From Lachnospiraceae bacterium (lineage in GTDB: Bacteria; Bacillota; Clostridia; Lachnospirales; Lachnospiraceae): a stretch of DNA of 64,000 nucleotides. Made by a program: the position numbers and the translations under genes. This document shows, one piece after another, positions 1,112 to 52,781 of the stretch (positions within the stretch are counted from its first letter, which is position 1; every line of letters begins with the position of its first letter). The notes below the pieces were generated by a model. It was not told the DNA's origin. It did not search any database and worked only from the letters and a program-made list of their open reading frames with translations. The stretch is from NCBI GenBank assembly GCA_017446045.1, contig JAFSRP010000018.1, positions 294,759 to 358,758 on the forward strand. Reading direction: 5' to 3'.

Positions 1112-1275
1112 CTCTGTATCTTGACCTGAAAGATTCTTCGTAAAAAACGAATTGCTTCGTCGGTGCAGCAGCCGCTGCTTTCCAGAGGGCTGTCCGGACA
1201 CGGTCCTTTTGCCTGAGAGTTTCACTCCTTCGGCGGCAGTTTCCGCATTGCTGCATTCCTACTCTCTTCCGCATC
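1112..1275 (-). promoter_or_regulatory. Tandem glycine riboswitch (two aptamers)
   Basis: Read on the minus strand, aptamer 1 (about 1275-1197) has the classic landmarks GGAAGAGAG, GCCGCCGAAGGAG and CTCTCAGGCAAAAGGACCG. Aptamer 2 (about 1188-1112) follows after a short linker, with CTCTGGAAAGC, GCACCGACGAAGCAA and ATCTTTCAGGTCAAGATACAGAG. The order and linker match the cooperative tandem glycine riboswitch class. The ribosome binding site of the TRIC gene follows within about 20 bases. I see no clear terminator between aptamer 2 and that site, so control may be translational. Confidence 0.93.
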
Positions 1276-1300
1276 CATCATCCAGCTGAAAAAAACTATT

Positions 1301-11549: not shown

Positions 11550-12314
11550 TCAGTGTGTATTCTTCTTTGCGACCCATCCTCCGAACGTCTGGACGATGCT
11601 GACGGCGATCACAAGAACAAGAACGGTGATCCAGGTGATATCCGTCATGTTGCGATCATGACCGTAACGAATCGCGAAATCGCCAAGACCGCCCGCGCCC
11701 ACGGCACCTGCCATTGCAGTCAGGCCCAGTAAACTGATCGCTGTGATCGTTGTTCCCCTGGCGATATGACCAATGCTTTCCTTGAGATATACCCTCCAGA
11801 TTACATCAAGGGGGCTGCATCCCATGGAAAGCGCCGCCTCCACCAGTCCGTAATCCGTCTGTGCAAGTGCTGCCTCCACCTGCCTTATGAAAAAAGGTGT
11901 ACAGCCGAATACCAACGGAACGATCGCGCCACGGACATAGATCGCCGTTCCCATGATTAGACGGCTCAGGGGCATCAGGGCAGTCAGCAGGATGATAAAC
12001 GGGATCGAACGGAACATATTTACGATCTTGTCCAATGTCTGATAGATGATCCTGTTTTCCAGTATTCCTCCCGGTCTGGTCACAGTCAGAACGATTCCCA
12101 GAATGAGACCGATGAGAAAGGAAACGCTGCCCGCCCATAGTTCCATGATCAATGTGTCTTTCATGGCGGAAAGGAAATCGCCCCAGTGTGCGTATACGTT
12201 CGGCAGGCTGTTTTCGATGAACGCCGGTCCTGTAATTGTCTTTTTTGCAAGCAGGATCCATCCCCCATCAGGCATCAGACCCGGCAGCTGCATTTCAAGC
12301 AGAAATCCTGGCAT
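11550..12314 (-). CDS. metI: Methionine ABC transporter permease
   Basis: The 254-residue protein has five to six membrane helices and the binding-protein-dependent permease EAA loop VEAALSMGCSPLDVIWRVYLKES, followed by SLLGLTAMAGAVGAGGLGDFAIRYG, a MetI hallmark. The N-terminal about 40 residues are longer than in many MetI proteins. Its start overlaps the end of metN by 20 bases, indicating translational coupling. It moves methionine and related compounds across the membrane with MetN and MetQ. Confidence 0.93.
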   Translation of the reverse strand: MPGFLLEMQLPGLMPDGGWILLAKKTITGPAFIENSLPNVYAHWGDFLSAMKDTLIMELWAGSVSFLIGLILGIVLTVTRPGGILENRIIYQTLDKIVNMFRSIPFIILLTALMPLSRLIMGTAIYVRGAIVPLVFGCTPFFIRQVEAALAQTDYGLVEAALSMGCSPLDVIWRVYLKESIGHIARGTTITAISLLGLTAMAGAVGAGGLGDFAIRYGHDRNMTDITWITVLVLVIAVSIVQTFGGWVAKKNTH

Positions 12315-13347
12315 CTTTGATCACCTCCACTTCCACATGATTGCTCTCGATATATTCAATCGCCCTTGTCAGATTTTCATAATCTCCGTGCATGATCACC
12401 ACTGTATCTCCGATAGATTTATCATCTATGATCTCAATATCGGCAAACAGGATATTCAGCGATATATCAAAACGACGTACTGCTGTTGAGATCAGCGGTT
12501 CCGAGACCAGCAGCTGTTTGTAGTGCAGGACCGCGAGAATTTCTCCTGTTTCCAGCCTGACGACATCCGAATCTGTATCTACCAGCTCATAGACCTTTGA
12601 AACATTGGAGGTCGTTCGGATGAAAGTTTTTGTGATCTGCTGCTTCGGATCCGTAAACACAGAAAAAATATCACCGCTCTCTACCAACGATCCATGTTCC
12701 ATTACTGCGACCTTATTGCAGATAGATTTGATCACAGCCATCTCATGAGTAATGACGACCACGGTCAGTCCCAGTTCTTTATTTAACTTTTTGATTAGTT
12801 GCAGGATCGATGCCGTCGTCTGGGGATCCAAAGCAGAAGTGGCTTCATCACAAAGCAGGATTCTGGGATCATTGGCGAGAGCCCTCGCGATGGCGACTCT
12901 CTGCTTCTGCCCTCCGGAAAGCTGTGCGGGGAAATCCTTTGCCTTTTCTTCTATTTCTACCAGACGAAGCAGTCTGTGTACCTTTTCACGGATCTCTTCT
13001 TTTGTTAGTCCGCTTCCCTTGAGCGGGAAAGCTACATTTTCCTCTACTGTACGGGACGGCATGAGGTTAAAATGCTGGAAGATCATTCCGATCTTCTTCC
13101 GAGCTTCCCTTAATTCCTTAGGTGACAGTTCCATCATATTCCTGCCATCGATCAGCACCTGTCCCGAAGAAGGACGTCCCAACAGGTTGATGCAGCGCAC
13201 CAGAGTGGATTTACCCGCGCCCGAAAAACCGATGATGCCGTAAATGTCCCCATCCTCGACAGTCAGTGAAACATCATTGACCGCATGTATTGTCTCCGAG
13301 CGGCCATTTTCATTAAATTCCTTTTTGACGTGGATCAGTTCAATCAA
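12295..13347 (-). CDS. metN: Methionine ABC transporter ATP-binding protein with NIL domain
   Basis: Walker A GFSGAGKST, signature LSGGQKQRVAIARAL, Walker B ILLCDEATSALD and the switch His in VITHEM are present. The C-terminal about 90 residues form the NIL-type regulatory domain found in MetN, which binds methionine and closes the transporter when methionine is plentiful. The length (350) is normal. The ATG overlaps the stop codon of the deacylase gene by four bases. Confidence 0.95.
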   Translation of the reverse strand: MIELIHVKKEFNENGRSETIHAVNDVSLTVEDGDIYGIIGFSGAGKSTLVRCINLLGRPSSGQVLIDGRNMMELSPKELREARKKIGMIFQHFNLMPSRTVEENVAFPLKGSGLTKEEIREKVHRLLRLVEIEEKAKDFPAQLSGGQKQRVAIARALANDPRILLCDEATSALDPQTTASILQLIKKLNKELGLTVVVITHEMAVIKSICNKVAVMEHGSLVESGDIFSVFTDPKQQITKTFIRTTSNVSKVYELVDTDSDVVRLETGEILAVLHYKQLLVSEPLISTAVRRFDISLNILFADIEIIDDKSIGDTVVIMHGDYENLTRAIEYIESNHVEVEVIKDARISA

Positions 13348-14948
13348 ATGAGTACCTCCCCGACATTGACGCGTTCGATGCCGTCAATGATCACATGGCA
13401 GATCCCCTCCGGTTTTCGGAACGGGTCCTTGAAGCTGGCTTTGGAGCCTACGGTCTCTCTGTCGAAGATCACCAGGTCAGCCCTGGAGTCTGCGCGGATA
13501 TGTCCGCGGTCCTTGAGTCCCAGAAAATCAGCAGGGAGCGAAGTGCATTTACGGATTGCTTCCTCCCAGCTTACCAGCTGTCTGTTCCGGACATATTCAC
13601 CCAGCATATACACATGATTGCTGTAGCCCCTCGGATGCGCGGGAAGTCCGCTTCCCGTTCCGATTCCGTCGCATCCGATCGCTGTAAACGGGGAAGCGAA
13701 GATCCGTTCGACCAGTTCTTCCCCGCAAAACTCCAGTGTCAGAAGTGCATTGCCATGATTCTGTACCAGCAGATCCATGATCGTTTCCACTTCATTCATA
13801 TCTCTTCGTACAGCAATATCCGCAATACTCAGACCCGCATACTCATTCGTTTCTTCCGCATAGATCACTGTCAATTTCTCCGGACCGATCTTGCGGTAAT
13901 AATTCTCCCAGGAAAGGTCCGTTTCGATGCTTTTACGGACAAGCGCCCGGAAATCCGGTTCTGAAAGTCTGTGAACGCATTCTGCTATGCCGTCCTTCAA
14001 AGAAAACGGCGGAAACAGCACAGCCAGTCCTGTGGAAGACAGATTGGACTGATATTGGTCATTGATGACCCTAATGCCTTCATCCTGTGCGGTTTCAATC
14101 AGACGCAGTATCTCTTCTGCATTCTCACGCCCCTTTGGTCCGATGGATTTGAGATGTGAGATCAGTACCTTGCAGCCGGACTGACGCCCAATATCGATCG
14201 CCTCCTTTACAGCCCCGACCACCAGATCGCTTTCGTTGCGCATATGCGTCGTATACACACCATCATATTCCGTCAGTACTTTGCATAGGTCGATCAGTTC
14301 TTCCCTGTCCGAATATACTCCCGGCGGATAGATCAGACCGCTTGACAGACCGATAGCGCCGGCTTCCATCGCCTCCCTCAGGAGATTCTTCATCTGTTCC
14401 GCTTCTCCGGATGTGGGCTTCCGGTTCTCCATTTTCATGACCGCCAGACGGATCGTTCCGTGTCCCGCCAACTGCTCACGATGTATCACGGGAGAAAGTG
14501 CTTTGATATCATTTAGATACTTTTCTGTTGTTATCCAGGAACGCCAGAGTTCATTGTCGATCCGGTAAGGTACTATCGGCTGGATATAGTCCAAAAGCAT
14601 TTGAAACCGTTCCGGGTCTGCCGATACCGGTGCCGGAGACTGTCCGCAGTTACCGACAATCTGTGTCGTCACTCCCTGCAGCAGCGTGGCAGTTTCAAAA
14701 CGATCGACAAACGGATAGAGATCATTATGATTATGCGTGTCAAAAAAACCCGGGCACAGGATCCAACCCGGCTTTCCCTCGATCACACGTTTTGTCCCGT
14801 CGCTCTCCGCTGCCGTGCACAGGCTGTCTTCGTCCGGACTGCGGAAAACATCTTTGATTCTTCCGTCGCGCACACCAACGCTCCCCTTAAACAGGGGAGC
14901 GCCGGTACCATCCGCAATATCTATATTTTTGATCAGAATATCGTACAT
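13344..14948 (-). CDS. D-aminoacylase / N-acyl-D-amino-acid deacylase family amidohydrolase
   Basis: The 534-residue metal-dependent hydrolase has FFDTHNHND (His72 and His74), the metal Cys motif GNCGQSPAP (Cys101), THMRNES and ISHLKS for the other metal His residues, and the catalytic Asp in IGCDGIGTGSG. This pattern is specific for D-aminoacylases within the amidohydrolase superfamily. It lies between metQ and metN in a tight operon. The natural reading is that the transporter also brings in an N-acylated or D-methionine derivative which this enzyme deacylates. That substrate is inferred from position. Confidence 0.9.
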   Translation of the reverse strand: MYDILIKNIDIADGTGAPLFKGSVGVRDGRIKDVFRSPDEDSLCTAAESDGTKRVIEGKPGWILCPGFFDTHNHNDLYPFVDRFETATLLQGVTTQIVGNCGQSPAPVSADPERFQMLLDYIQPIVPYRIDNELWRSWITTEKYLNDIKALSPVIHREQLAGHGTIRLAVMKMENRKPTSGEAEQMKNLLREAMEAGAIGLSSGLIYPPGVYSDREELIDLCKVLTEYDGVYTTHMRNESDLVVGAVKEAIDIGRQSGCKVLISHLKSIGPKGRENAEEILRLIETAQDEGIRVINDQYQSNLSSTGLAVLFPPFSLKDGIAECVHRLSEPDFRALVRKSIETDLSWENYYRKIGPEKLTVIYAEETNEYAGLSIADIAVRRDMNEVETIMDLLVQNHGNALLTLEFCGEELVERIFASPFTAIGCDGIGTGSGLPAHPRGYSNHVYMLGEYVRNRQLVSWEEAIRKCTSLPADFLGLKDRGHIRADSRADLVIFDRETVGSKASFKDPFRKPEGICHVIIDGIERVNVGEVLI

Positions 14949-15007: not shown

Positions 15008-15967
15008 TTATCTGTACTGTGCGATCAGGTCTCTGTCCCAGCCGACCGGGACGTGATATCCGCCGAACAGTTCATTGTACAGATCAATGGTTCCCTCTGT
15101 CTGATACGCTTCAACGATTTTTTCGAAGACGTCCAGCTTCGCGGGATCCTTCGTATCTTCCGTCCGTACTACGATCAGGCCCCAGTAGTTTTCATCTGAA
15201 AGGGATACATCCTTGAAGATCGCGTCATCCGTCTTCATGCCGAAATCCACTACATAGTTGCCGTTGATCACTGCTGCATCGATATCCTGCAATGCTGCAG
15301 GGATCACGCTGCCCTGGAGCTCTTCGATCGTAATATCGACCAGATATTCCTCGATATCATCCACGGTCGGACTTAAGGGGATATCATCCTTAAGCTTGAT
15401 CAATCCAGCCGCCTCAAGGACTTTCAGCGCACGTCCGCCGTTCGTCACGTCGTTGGGGATCGCAACGACAGCTCCATCTTTGATCTCGTCCGGGGATTTC
15501 ACCTTGAGGGAATACAAGTTGAGCGGGATGATATAGCTATGTCCGACCGGGCTCAGTTCATAGCCGTGCGCGGCAACCTCATCGTTAAAGAAAGCCTGAT
15601 GCTGAAACTGGTTGATGTCTATCTCCCCGCTTGCCAACGCGTTATTGGGAAGGGAATAATCCGAGAATTCCACGATCTCAAGATCAATACCCTCATCTGC
15701 CAGAATATCGATTGCATTCGCCCATACATCTTCTGTCATGCTTCCGCAGACACCTAAAGTGACCTTGATTGGCTCTTCAGATCCGCCATTATCCTCTGCT
15801 TCGGTTTTTTCTTCCTCTGTTTCCTCTGCAGCTGTTGTGGTTGCTGCAGGCTTTTCAGTTTCCGTTGTTGTTGTGGTTTCCGGTGCCGCAGACTGTGATC
15901 CGCCGCAGGCAGTCAATGCAGCTATGATGATAATTCCCAATGTTGCTGTGATGATCGTCTTTTTCAT
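15008..15967 (-). CDS. metQ: Methionine-binding lipoprotein of the MetNIQ transporter
   Basis: The 319-residue protein starts MKKTIITATL with a lipobox LTAC-GG (Cys at about residue 21), then a Thr/Glu-rich linker of about 45 residues. The NlpA/MetQ domain follows, with LGVCGSMTEDVW, EIDINQFQHQAFFN, IIPLNLYSLKVKS, VAIPNDVTNGGRAL and AAVINGNYVVDFGM. It would sit on the outer face of the membrane and deliver methionine to MetI. It is the first structural gene after a long regulated leader. Confidence 0.95.
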   Translation of the reverse strand: MKKTIITATLGIIIIAALTACGGSQSAAPETTTTTETEKPAATTTAAEETEEEKTEAEDNGGSEEPIKVTLGVCGSMTEDVWANAIDILADEGIDLEIVEFSDYSLPNNALASGEIDINQFQHQAFFNDEVAAHGYELSPVGHSYIIPLNLYSLKVKSPDEIKDGAVVAIPNDVTNGGRALKVLEAAGLIKLKDDIPLSPTVDDIEEYLVDITIEELQGSVIPAALQDIDAAVINGNYVVDFGMKTDDAIFKDVSLSDENYWGLIVVRTEDTKDPAKLDVFEKIVEAYQTEGTIDLYNELFGGYHVPVGWDRDLIAQYR

Positions 15968-16052: not shown

Positions 16053-16092
16053 GTGTAAAAAGAAAACCCGCAGGACATTTTCTGCCCTGCGG
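16053..16092 (-). terminator. Second terminator in the metQ leader
   Basis: The stem CCGCAGG/CCTGCGG, extended by weaker pairs, is followed by TTTTCTTTTT on the minus strand. It lies about 85 bases upstream of metQ and downstream of the leader-peptide attenuator, so transcripts must pass it to reach metQ. It may be the expression platform of the structured element at 16120-16187. Confidence 0.7.
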
Positions 16093-16119
16093 ATATTTAT
16101 CATCCTGTGAATGTCAGAT

Positions 16120-16213: not shown

Positions 16214-16245
16214 ATAAAAACAGGGCGTTCGTTCGATCGCCCTGT
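16214..16245 (-). terminator. Attenuator terminator after the Met-rich leader peptide
   Basis: An 8-bp GC-rich stem (ACAGGGCG with CGCCCTGT) with a 10-base loop is followed by TTTTTATG on the minus strand, 50 bases after the leader-peptide stop codon. The loop contains GAACGAA. This is complementary to TTCGTTC (16287-16293), which lies immediately after the leader stop codon, so a competing antiterminator can form. Confidence 0.8.
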
Positions 16246-16294
16246 CTGATGATCCATAAATATTGAAATGAAAGGTCAGGTGCGAAGAACGAAG

Positions 16295-16363
16295 TTAATC
16301 CATACGGCACATCATGCCGCACATGTACATGCACATGACCATCATCGTATGATCTCTCTTCAT
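16295..16363 (-). CDS. Methionine-rich leader peptide of the metQ operon
   Basis: A 22-codon frame opens at ATG 16361-16363, nine bases after AAGGAG, and stops at TAA 16295-16297. Nine of the 22 residues are Met (positions 1, 7, 8, 10, 12, 14, 17, 18, 21) and three are Cys (11, 15, 19). Such enrichment in the operon's own substrate amino acid, followed by a rho-independent terminator, is the classic design of ribosome-mediated attenuation. With low charged Met-tRNA, ribosomes would stall on the Met codons. The TTCGTTC segment after the stop would then stay free to pair with the terminator loop. Confidence 0.8.
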   Translation of the reverse strand: MKRDHTMMVMCMYMCGMMCRMD

Positions 16364-16440
16364 CGCGATTTTCTCCTTTCTCTGCTGACCCGTATGGTTT
16401 ACCCATCTGGTCACTCGGTTGTTTGAACTAATTGTTTGCG

Positions 16441-16469
16441 ATAATAACACCAATTGCCACCCTTGTCAA
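16441..16469 (-). promoter_or_regulatory. Promoter of the metQ operon
   Basis: TTGACA and TATTAT are separated by 17 bases on the minus strand. The predicted transcript has about 70 bases before the leader-peptide ATG, including a small hairpin with TGACC/GGTCA arms. Confidence 0.75.
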
Positions 16470-16640: not shown

Positions 16641-17393
16641 TTATTCCTCGATCGGGCCCATGGAAAGTGCCTGCTTCGGGCAGCCCTTGATGCAGGCGCC
16701 GCATTTGATGCAGGTCTCACGGTCGATCTTCCAGGTCTTGGATGCACGGTCGACTTCGATCGCACCGACCGGGCACTTCTTCGCGCAGAGCGTGCAGTAG
16801 ACGCACTTCTCGGCATCGAAAACAACACCTTCGGGCTTCGGCTCGGCGAAGGAAAGGACCTTCTTCGGGCACTTGCCGATACAGATGCCGCACTTCACGC
16901 ACTTCTCGTGATCCACCTGCCAGGTCTTGGTGGTGCGGTCCACGGTAATGGCGTTCTGCGGGCAGTTCCTTGCGCAGAGACCACAGTAGATACAGTTGTC
17001 GATGTCGCAGGTAAGGTCGCCGATGATCTTCTTCTTGAAGGTAACGCCCTTGACCAGCAGATCCTCGTGCTTGGTTCCTACCATATGGTAGTCCTTGGTC
17101 ATCTGGATCGCGCCTTCTTCACAGAAGTCGACACAGGTCGCGCAGAAGGTACAGGAGGTAAGGTCAAAGGTACGCCAGATATTTTCGCCGCCTTCGACTT
17201 CCTCGCGCTCCAGCTCGATCGCAGCCGGAGAACATACCTTGATGCACATTCCGCAGTCAATGCACTTTTCGCCGTCAAAAGCAATGCGGCCGCGGTAATT
17301 GCCGAGACCCTCGCCTTCCGGACACGGGAATGCTTCGGTACTGGGTTTGGTGAATGCGTTGGTGATCGCCTTTTTTAAGAATGGGAACATCAT
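16641..17393 (-). CDS. Polyferredoxin subunit of the membrane-bound hydrogenase (six 4Fe-4S motifs)
   Basis: The 250-residue protein has six CxxCxxCxxxC(P/E/S) motifs at about residues 44, 81, 134, 165, 197 and 228, enough for six [4Fe-4S] clusters. The usual subunit at this position (MbhN, EchF, NuoI) has two. It overlaps the small-subunit gene by four bases and ends the operon. It should carry electrons from ferredoxin, or from another donor, to the small subunit on the cytoplasmic side. The extra clusters suggest an extended wire or an additional docking site. Confidence 0.9.
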   Translation of the reverse strand: MMFPFLKKAITNAFTKPSTEAFPCPEGEGLGNYRGRIAFDGEKCIDCGMCIKVCSPAAIELEREEVEGGENIWRTFDLTSCTFCATCVDFCEEGAIQMTKDYHMVGTKHEDLLVKGVTFKKKIIGDLTCDIDNCIYCGLCARNCPQNAITVDRTTKTWQVDHEKCVKCGICIGKCPKKVLSFAEPKPEGVVFDAEKCVYCTLCAKKCPVGAIEVDRASKTWKIDRETCIKCGACIKGCPKQALSMGPIEE

Positions 17394-52392: not shown

Positions 52393-52466
52393 CAGCTTTT
52401 CCAATGGGACACATGCCGTCTGCTGTCTCCGCTGTATCTGCACAGTTCAACGGCATCAGGGATCAT

Positions 52467-52781
52467 TTATTCATCAAAATCATCATCATAGACGTTGTGT
52501 TCGGCTTCTGCCTCATCGTCTTCATCCTCATCAAATTCATCATCGAAGACATCGTCGAGATCCTCATAATCGTCCATATAGTCTTCCGTGAAATGATGAT
52601 AGACAGCATACGCGATCACACCGATCACGACAAGCGCACCGAGCACAGAAAGGAAGATGACCAGAAGCTTCCTGGAATCTGTCTCATCCTCATTTTCGAC
52701 CTTCTTCACCTTATCGATGAGCTCATCGATCGTCTTTTTTGCTTCGTTCAAAGAAACGAGTGTGTTGAATCTCTCCATCAT
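52467..52781 (-). CDS. Small single-pass membrane protein with acidic tail
   Basis: The start at 52781 (MMERFNTLVS) follows GGGAGGAGC. This 104-residue protein has an N-terminal coiled coil of about 40 residues, one membrane helix (about 40-63) and a strongly acidic Asp/Glu/Tyr tail. No family is recognised. It lies between pcrA and the RlmD-type gene. Confidence 0.7.
   Translation of the reverse strand: MMERFNTLVSLNEAKKTIDELIDKVKKVENEDETDSRKLLVIFLSVLGALVVIGVIAYAVYHHFTEDYMDDYEDLDDVFDDEFDEDEDDEAEAEHNVYDDDFDE

Follow-up and report, generated by a model that had tools for sequence, protein, structure and literature searches.

A putative Met/Cys leader-peptide attenuator before a metQ operon of a Lachnospiraceae bacterium, and similar leaders in a gammaproteobacterial family

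Introduction

Methionine genes are a textbook case of control by riboswitches, T-boxes and MetJ. The locus considered here lies in a window of 64,000 nucleotides (the whole stretch of DNA that was analysed) from a Lachnospiraceae bacterium and raises the question of what a very short, Met-rich frame is doing in front of a methionine transport operon. A sequence-only reading had proposed trp/his-type attenuation of this operon. The parts of the locus, their recurrence in other genomes and the calculated pairings all support this proposal, and the mechanism which it put forward is very probably right.

The leader locus and its operon

On the minus strand the elements follow each other in the order promoter, leader frame, antiterminator strand, terminator, second hairpin and metQ (start at 15967). 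The features are:

16441..16469, minus strand: sigma-A-type promoter, TTGACA-17-TATTAT with TG before the -10 element
16373..16385, minus strand: Shine-Dalgarno (SD) region of the leader frame, with the SD AAAGGAG at 16379-16373; candidate protector (region 1)
16295..16363, minus strand: leader peptide frame MKRDHTMMVMCMYMCGMMCRMD, 22 codons, with 9 Met and 3 Cys
16304..16320, minus strand: small hairpin GCGGCAUGAUGUGCCGU within the leader frame, encoding GMMC and its neighbours
16282..16294, minus strand: antiterminator strand (region 2) CTTCGTTCTTCGC, directly 3' of the leader stop codon
16220..16245, minus strand: intrinsic terminator, a stem-loop (regions 3 and 4) that leads into a T5 tract
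16066..16094, minus strand: second terminator-like hairpin before metQ, common to the L006 and L035 loci; its link to the Met leader is putative
15008..15967, minus strand: metQ, NlpA/MetQ-family lipoprotein (PF03180, E 1.6e-65), first controlled gene
13344..14948, minus strand: amidohydrolase-family gene, next in the row and in the same direction as metQ
12295..13347, minus strand: metN, ABC ATPase with a NIL domain; best NCBIfam match MetN, below cut-off
11550..12314, minus strand: metI, permease; best NCBIfam match MetI, below cut-off

The promoter has 11 of the 12 consensus bases (-35 TTGACA from 16469, -10 TATTAT to 16441, spacer of 17). The terminator at 16245-16220 has a folding energy of -15.4 kcal/mol and begins 49 bases past the leader stop codon; the mechanical terminator scan, which allows loops of 3-8, did not list it because its loop is 10. 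The promoter, the 22-codon frame with a good ribosome binding site and the terminator behind its stop codon were thus recovered as they had been claimed from the letters. The interval given for the attenuator, 16214-16469, was also right, with the amendment that metQ begins only at 15967 and the second terminator-like hairpin lies between. By sequence and computation the locus shows several defining features of the attenuator class: a codon-rich frame with an SD, a terminator before the gene, and an antiterminator strand which a ribosome can cover. Relatives also have the small hairpin within the frame, which may act in pausing.

Between the Met attenuator and metQ, the stretch 16190-16066 (minus strand) is conserved and is also found in L006 and L035; it is possibly a second attenuator and has no Rfam match at the gathering threshold, only sub-threshold ones. 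The same holds for the Met leader itself, for which no Rfam family passed gathering and a search at E up to 10 gave sub-threshold matches only. The covariance model of the T-box (RF00230) and the Rfam models of the S-box and other SAM riboswitches were unmatched at this leader. Elsewhere in the window, tandem glycine riboswitch aptamers (RF00504) are located at 1112-1281 (minus strand).

For the proteins of the operon, the best or near-best NCBIfam matches are the methionine models, at scores under the curated cut-offs; the Pfam matches are well above theirs. The operon functions are therefore given at family level only. The related operons differ in their additional genes: in G012 and G024 an aminotransferase and an L-LDH-like dehydrogenase are inserted between metQ and metN, and in G001 and G013 a GlcD-like FAD oxidase follows metQ, where the window operon has the amidohydrolase instead. 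These gene sets would be compatible with the import and conversion of keto, hydroxy or N-acyl forms of methionine.

Proposed mechanism

We consider it likely that the locus works as a ribosome-mediated attenuator which reads the charging of Met-tRNA, and probably of Cys-tRNA, and sets the read-through into metQ-amidohydrolase-metN-metI; the Cys codons probably contribute to this signal. We infer from the sequence that the leader is translated, that ribosomes stall on it, that transcription terminates and that the system responds to methionine. When methionine is ample, the ribosome would reach the stop codon and cover 16294-16282, and the terminator 16245-16220 would form. When charged Met-tRNA is scarce, the ribosome would stall on the Met/Cys codons, leaving region 2 free while the 5' arm of the terminator is made; the 2:3 antiterminator would then form first and the operon would be transcribed.

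Leaders in the genus

The genus was sampled with 25 genomes, 20 of which have a MetQ-family match. These matches comprise 27 places, and 26 were scanned upstream (L034 was left out) with thresholds that varied between scans. A Met-rich leader precedes metQ in five of the 25 genomes, at five of the 26 scanned MetQ-family places, the other 21 being without a leader. The five leaders, with their core antiterminator helices, are:

Window: core helix TTCGTTC/GAACGAA
L035 (G001): leader peptide MKRLHTMTAMCMYMCGMMRRMY, core helix GTCGTTC/GGACGAC
L006 (G013): leader peptide MKRLHTMKAMCMYMCGMMRRMY, core helix as in L035
L004 (G024): leader peptide MRTKAIALRVMYMMDMYGMMMCRYKLCCSSR, core helix TTCTTCA/TGAAGGA
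L005 (G012): leader peptide MRTGREAMVMCMQMMYGMMMCRIASCRLDCS, core helix TCGTCTT/AAGACGA

Despite sequence differences on both strands, the segment following the Met codons is able to pair with the terminator's 5' arm and loop at each of the five places. Among the close relatives there is one compensatory change, in which a U-A pair of the window corresponds to G-C in L006 and L035. In the alignment, L004 and L005 use a helix register other than the window's, and when terminators are swapped among the five genus leaders, the partners mostly still pair well. For both reasons the genus evidence represents preserved pairing more than column-wise covariation. The expectation that Met codons and pairing should be found again in relatives was thus borne out at the five places and not at the other 21.

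The leader and the gene behind it may differ in history. No leader precedes the closest MetQ (L003 in G001, 79% identity), which sits after a metI-like sequence. The window leader is most similar to those of L006 and L035, but the window MetQ falls outside their clade in the tree, some inner nodes of which are weakly supported; this suggests that leader and gene were reshuffled.

A genus-wide pattern search for the hairpin encoding GMM(M)CR gave 65 matches in 22 of the 25 genomes, against 18 for the reversed control pattern. Among the short frames in 30 loci from this search (L234-L263), the sole Met-rich one is the known leader of G012; three further rows are, by their coordinates, the known leaders of G000, G013 and G001, and the leader of G024 is unmatched by the pattern. 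Further genes in the genus may carry such a leader. A profile search with the leader peptides in 397 genomes returned four weak matches and missed the window's own leader, which indicates that peptides this short are beyond the reach of this search.

Several observations concern other MetQ-family genes. A Clostridiales-1 RNA (RF01699) is located at L036 1323-1490 (minus strand), beside a leaderless metQ-family gene of G024. The MetQ proteins of Treponema and Synergistales (L048, L049, L050, L052 and L054) group with the window's genus in the tree, and the upstream scan flagged no Met leader at these five loci; perhaps they represent gene transfer without the switch. At L048 a lactate-dehydrogenase-like gene, judged by eye, seemingly precedes metQ.

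Leaders in a gammaproteobacterial family

A scan of 80 named loci revealed two clear leaders, L064 (Succinatimonas) and L078 (Succinivibrio), both gammaproteobacterial. The search was extended to the family around the L078 genome, with 56 genomes and 95 places at E up to 1e-30; 92 of them were scanned, a few with little upstream sequence. This added five leaders before metQ (L147, L164, L168, L176 and L221/L174), giving seven at the 92 places, and a pattern search independent of metQ added L276, where the leader precedes metN. All eight are Met/Cys-rich, and in each one a terminator is accompanied by a complementary strand close to where the frame ends. The metQ upstream scans as a whole, with their varying thresholds, had also flagged L098, L127, L148, L158, L220 and L222, which were dropped by eye for having few Met codons, non-ATG starts or a position far from metQ. 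The distribution of the leaders is patchy both in the genus (5 of 26 places) and in this family (7 of 92).

Leaders found by scanning upstream of metQ precede metQ by construction, which does not apply to the pattern search. The latter gave 29 rows, or 24 distinct places, in 17 of the 56 genomes, compared with seven rows for the reversed control. In 12 of the 29 rows (10 of the 24 places) the match belongs to a short frame with a metQ/NlpA-like or metN gene immediately downstream; four of these ten places were known from the metQ scans and six are new. The remaining places, L273 aside, were judged to be chance or coding. At L273, near 1500 (G481:C4:16894-16908), a frame ending in SCMRMCMCM lies about 250 bases before a gene named by eye as porin-like; it may be chance or another member.

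The pattern search also uncovered a second form of leader. In L270, L271, L272, L275 and L278 the frames have CMCMCM or CMCMCMCM as their last residues and directly precede a divergent MetQ/NlpA-like gene (near locus position 1500; the copy in G446 matched at E 4e-28), and no terminator was seen by eye at these five loci. By eye, ACUC(C/U)GACAG, located 5' of the Met/Cys run, complements the SD stretch of the next gene, fully in L270 and less so in the other four. A ribosome stalled in the Met/Cys run could keep this SD free, and we suggest the second form as a candidate for translational attenuation. Succinivibrio dextrinosolvens is among the carriers of this SD-type candidate.

MetJ was not found in any of the 12 leader-carrying gammaproteobacterial genomes (seven of the terminator type and five of the SD type), and the E. 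coli control was positive. Peptides, terminators and MetQ clades are unlike between the clostridial genus and the gammaproteobacterial group, and this points to independent origin, although loss or transfer may account for the pattern instead.

Calculated antiterminator pairing and folding

Pairing was computed for 13 leaders: the five of the genus and the eight gammaproteobacterial ones of the terminator type. In the window, CTTCGTTCTTCGC pairs with the loop and 5' arm of the terminator via TTCGTTC/GAACGAA plus TCGC/GCGA, which agrees with the loop and stem-invading pairings of the sequence-only reading and extends them by four more pairs. The resulting predicted duplex has an energy of -20.8 kcal/mol against a shuffle mean of -10.7, and 1 of 1000 shuffles was as good. 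Over the whole set, with 1000 shuffles per leader, 0-25 were as good in seven leaders, 34-90 in four, and 173 (L276) and 262 (L221) in the last two, whose pairings are unconvincing alone. The Fisher combination of these results is 9e-11 for leaders which are not all independent.

Swapping the terminators between leaders led to the same picture. RNAduplex energies between the post-Met segment and the 5' side of the terminator averaged -17.3 kcal/mol for native and -12.3 kcal/mol for swapped partners (nominal p 9e-6 for the 13 leaders, 4e-5 for 11 non-redundant ones); in L276 the native pairing had no advantage in this control.

The effect of ribosome position was estimated from partition functions of the RNA downstream of the ribosome, the upstream partner of the antiterminator strand being left out. 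With the ribosome at an internal Met codon, 3.9-10.3 antiterminator pairs are expected in the nascent RNA at the best of three positions in all 13 leaders, compared with 0-2.0 pairs for the ribosome at the stop codon, also in 13 of 13. In L064 and L168 the antiterminator is already lost with the ribosome at the last Met. Once the terminator is completed, the antiterminator dominates at one or more stall positions in five leaders (L035, L006, L004, L005 and L147), while in the other eight, including the window, the terminator prevails at equilibrium whichever of the three positions the ribosome occupies. The switch must therefore be kinetic, that is, dependent on co-transcriptional order.

Without a ribosome, and with assumed 5' ends, full transcripts of all 13 leaders have the antiterminator strand paired upstream and the terminator formed; in unfinished transcripts five of the 13 leaders, among them the window's, favour the antiterminator. 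The partner of the antiterminator strand in the window's minimum-energy fold without a ribosome is the leader SD region (16385-16373); the centroid fold differs.

T-boxes and S-boxes in the sister genomes

The sequence-only reading had noted that Clostridia usually apply S-box or T-box RNAs to methionine genes, and these sensors are indeed present elsewhere in the genus. In eight sister genomes (L301-L308) a T-box search and cmscan against RF00230 placed a T-box before metN-metI-metQ; seven of them pass the gathering score and L308 is just below it. Each of the eight has N-AUG-G following GAA, the bases after it pair with the 5' strand, and the AUG occupies the register in which other T-boxes of the genus have the specifiers CUC-A and UGG-A. 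We read the specifier as AUG, which would make these T-boxes Met-specific. By the same rule, the ten T-boxes in four of the five leader-carrying genus genomes have UGG or CUC (L315 less surely); no T-box was found in G013, a genome 53% complete. The T-box-controlled MetQ proteins form a separate clade in the MetQ tree; the T-box is therefore another sensor on a homologous operon rather than proof of a replacement in a single step.

The S-box occurs as a single copy in each of 22 of the 25 genus genomes. The one S-box found in the window's genome precedes metK, and so does that of G001. T-boxes before methionine transporter genes have already been noted for lactobacilli (PMC2965389).

Alternative explanations

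What the leader senses may be asked separately from how it works. That it responds to cysteine or to sulfur amino acids generally, rather than to Met alone, seems unlikely to us. Cys codons are enriched (1-5 per leader in all 13), alternating MCMCM runs are found in Gammaproteobacteria, and Cys-run leaders precede cys genes of Actinobacteria (PMC1262725). However, with the start codon excluded, Met codons outnumber Cys codons in 11 of the 13 leaders and equal them in L221 and L276; the controlled genes belong to the MetQ/MetN families, and the T-box of the sister species acts on this operon with a specifier read as AUG. The peptide itself might alternatively be the sensor. In TnaC, a nascent peptide stalls the ribosome in response to Trp, and a similar arrest on Met or SAM could be proposed from the peptide end GMM(M)(C/R)R, which recurs in the five genus leaders. 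The same bases, however, form the hairpin GGC-AUG-AUG-(AUG)-UGC-CGU and its variants, which may explain the conservation at the RNA level, and the gammaproteobacterial leaders display no visible common peptide motif, only Met/Cys codons; we hold peptide arrest to be very improbable. Reading of Met codons by the ribosome is preferred to both.

Two further explanations would take the Met frame out of the main role. Control might be exerted mainly by the element at 16190-16066 with its own terminator, the Met leader being a relic or a minor component. The terminator-like hairpin and CACAGGATG..ATCCGCAGGGC do recur in the window, L006 and L035, but L004 and L005 have the Met leader and its terminator with no second U-tract terminator seen by eye, and this explanation appears to us quite improbable. 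Hardly credible is the last one, in which the frame is Met-rich by chance beside an unrelated terminator, or is the reverse of a His-rich frame (CAT = His) on the opposite strand. There is a plus-strand open frame with HTAHHAAHVHAHDHHRM at 16268-16426, and the window has one other Met-dense frame, at 52463-52567 (minus strand; 34 codons, MRISTMSSMMNLMRMKTMRQKPNTTSMMMILMNK), which may be coding DNA read on its antisense strand; Met density alone is therefore no proof. Yet none of 40 dinucleotide shuffles of the window contained a frame of this density (ATG start, 12-45 codons, at least five internal Met at 25% or more), against two in the real window; the minus strand also carries the next family-matched ORF (250 aa, 16641-17393); four other genomes have the frame, SD, terminator and pairing in front of metQ; and such a layout, unrelated in sequence, recurs in another phylum. 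A Met-reading attenuator at 16214-16469 thus remains our preferred interpretation.

Meaning of the leaders

On balance, and without much confidence, we are inclined towards a broader suggestion: that Met/Cys leader attenuation is a repeatedly evolved sensor of sulfur amino acids in gut anaerobes, which replaces the Met T-box in one clostridial genus and MetJ in a Succinivibrio-containing family, with Streptomyces as a possible third case, and which acts on termination and perhaps, in the five L270-type loci, by freeing the SD. If this is true, the sensed amino acid would also be the initiating one. Since Met starvation also threatens initiation, the switch must then distinguish a ribosome slowed at Met codons from a leader on which initiation has failed. 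One genus with both leader and T-box, and leaders in genomes of another phylum in which no MetJ was found, together make up a natural experiment in which one signal is served by different RNA devices.

Comparison with known systems

The T-box binds tRNA directly, without a peptide or ribosome. Compared with the window leader, the T-box of the sister genomes belongs to a homologous operon and would receive the same signal if its specifier is AUG; the sensing device differs. The S-box (RF00162) senses SAM. S-box and leader would both serve Met/SAM genes in the window's genome, the one S-box found being at metK and none at the leader.

Ribosome-mediated transcription attenuation of the trp/his type is known from the trp, his, leu and thr leaders of E. 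coli. The window leader resembles them in having a frame rich in the codons of one amino acid, an antiterminator strand at the stop codon and an intrinsic terminator; it differs in its Met and Cys codons, its importer genes, its clostridial host and its mixed ribosome-free folds. This type of attenuation is outlined in PMC9413887. Gram-positive examples are the Leu-rich ilv attenuator of S. aureus (PMC5794164) and the His leaders of Firmicutes (PMC2965389, PMC9413887), and leader peptides replacing T-boxes are noted in PMC2965389. The window leader would share with these Leu and His leaders the principle of leader-peptide attenuation in a Gram-positive bacterium and differs from them in its amino acid, Met; the passages on Firmicutes leaders in PMC5794164, PMC2965389 and PMC9413887 include no methionine leader.

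Other sulfur amino acid genes are described with different arrangements. In the relevant part of PMC1262725, the methionine operons of Actinobacteria have no conserved upstream RNA structure, and a Cys uORF stands before cysS (PMC8632094). Betaproteobacterial metX/metZ have an RNA element with a terminator and an antiterminator, in the account of which the word attenuation is not used (PMC4239095, in part), and a methionine-responsive 5'UTR of Xanthomonas is reported in a section of PMC6230763 where a leader peptide is unmentioned.

The mechanism as such is known, and its specificity for Met is little described: one proposal was found in the open-licence literature, in the relevant portions of those papers, namely metL before metNIQ of Streptomyces lividans TK24 (PMC8079986). 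This proposed attenuator ends in CMCRRMCAF, has three Met codons with the start, and is described in the passages on metL as having a leaderless start and no typical Rho-independent terminator (PMC8079986). Both metL and the window leader are short frames with Met and Cys codons before a methionine importer; unlike metL, the window leader has a terminator and an antiterminator pairing, which recur in some of its relatives.
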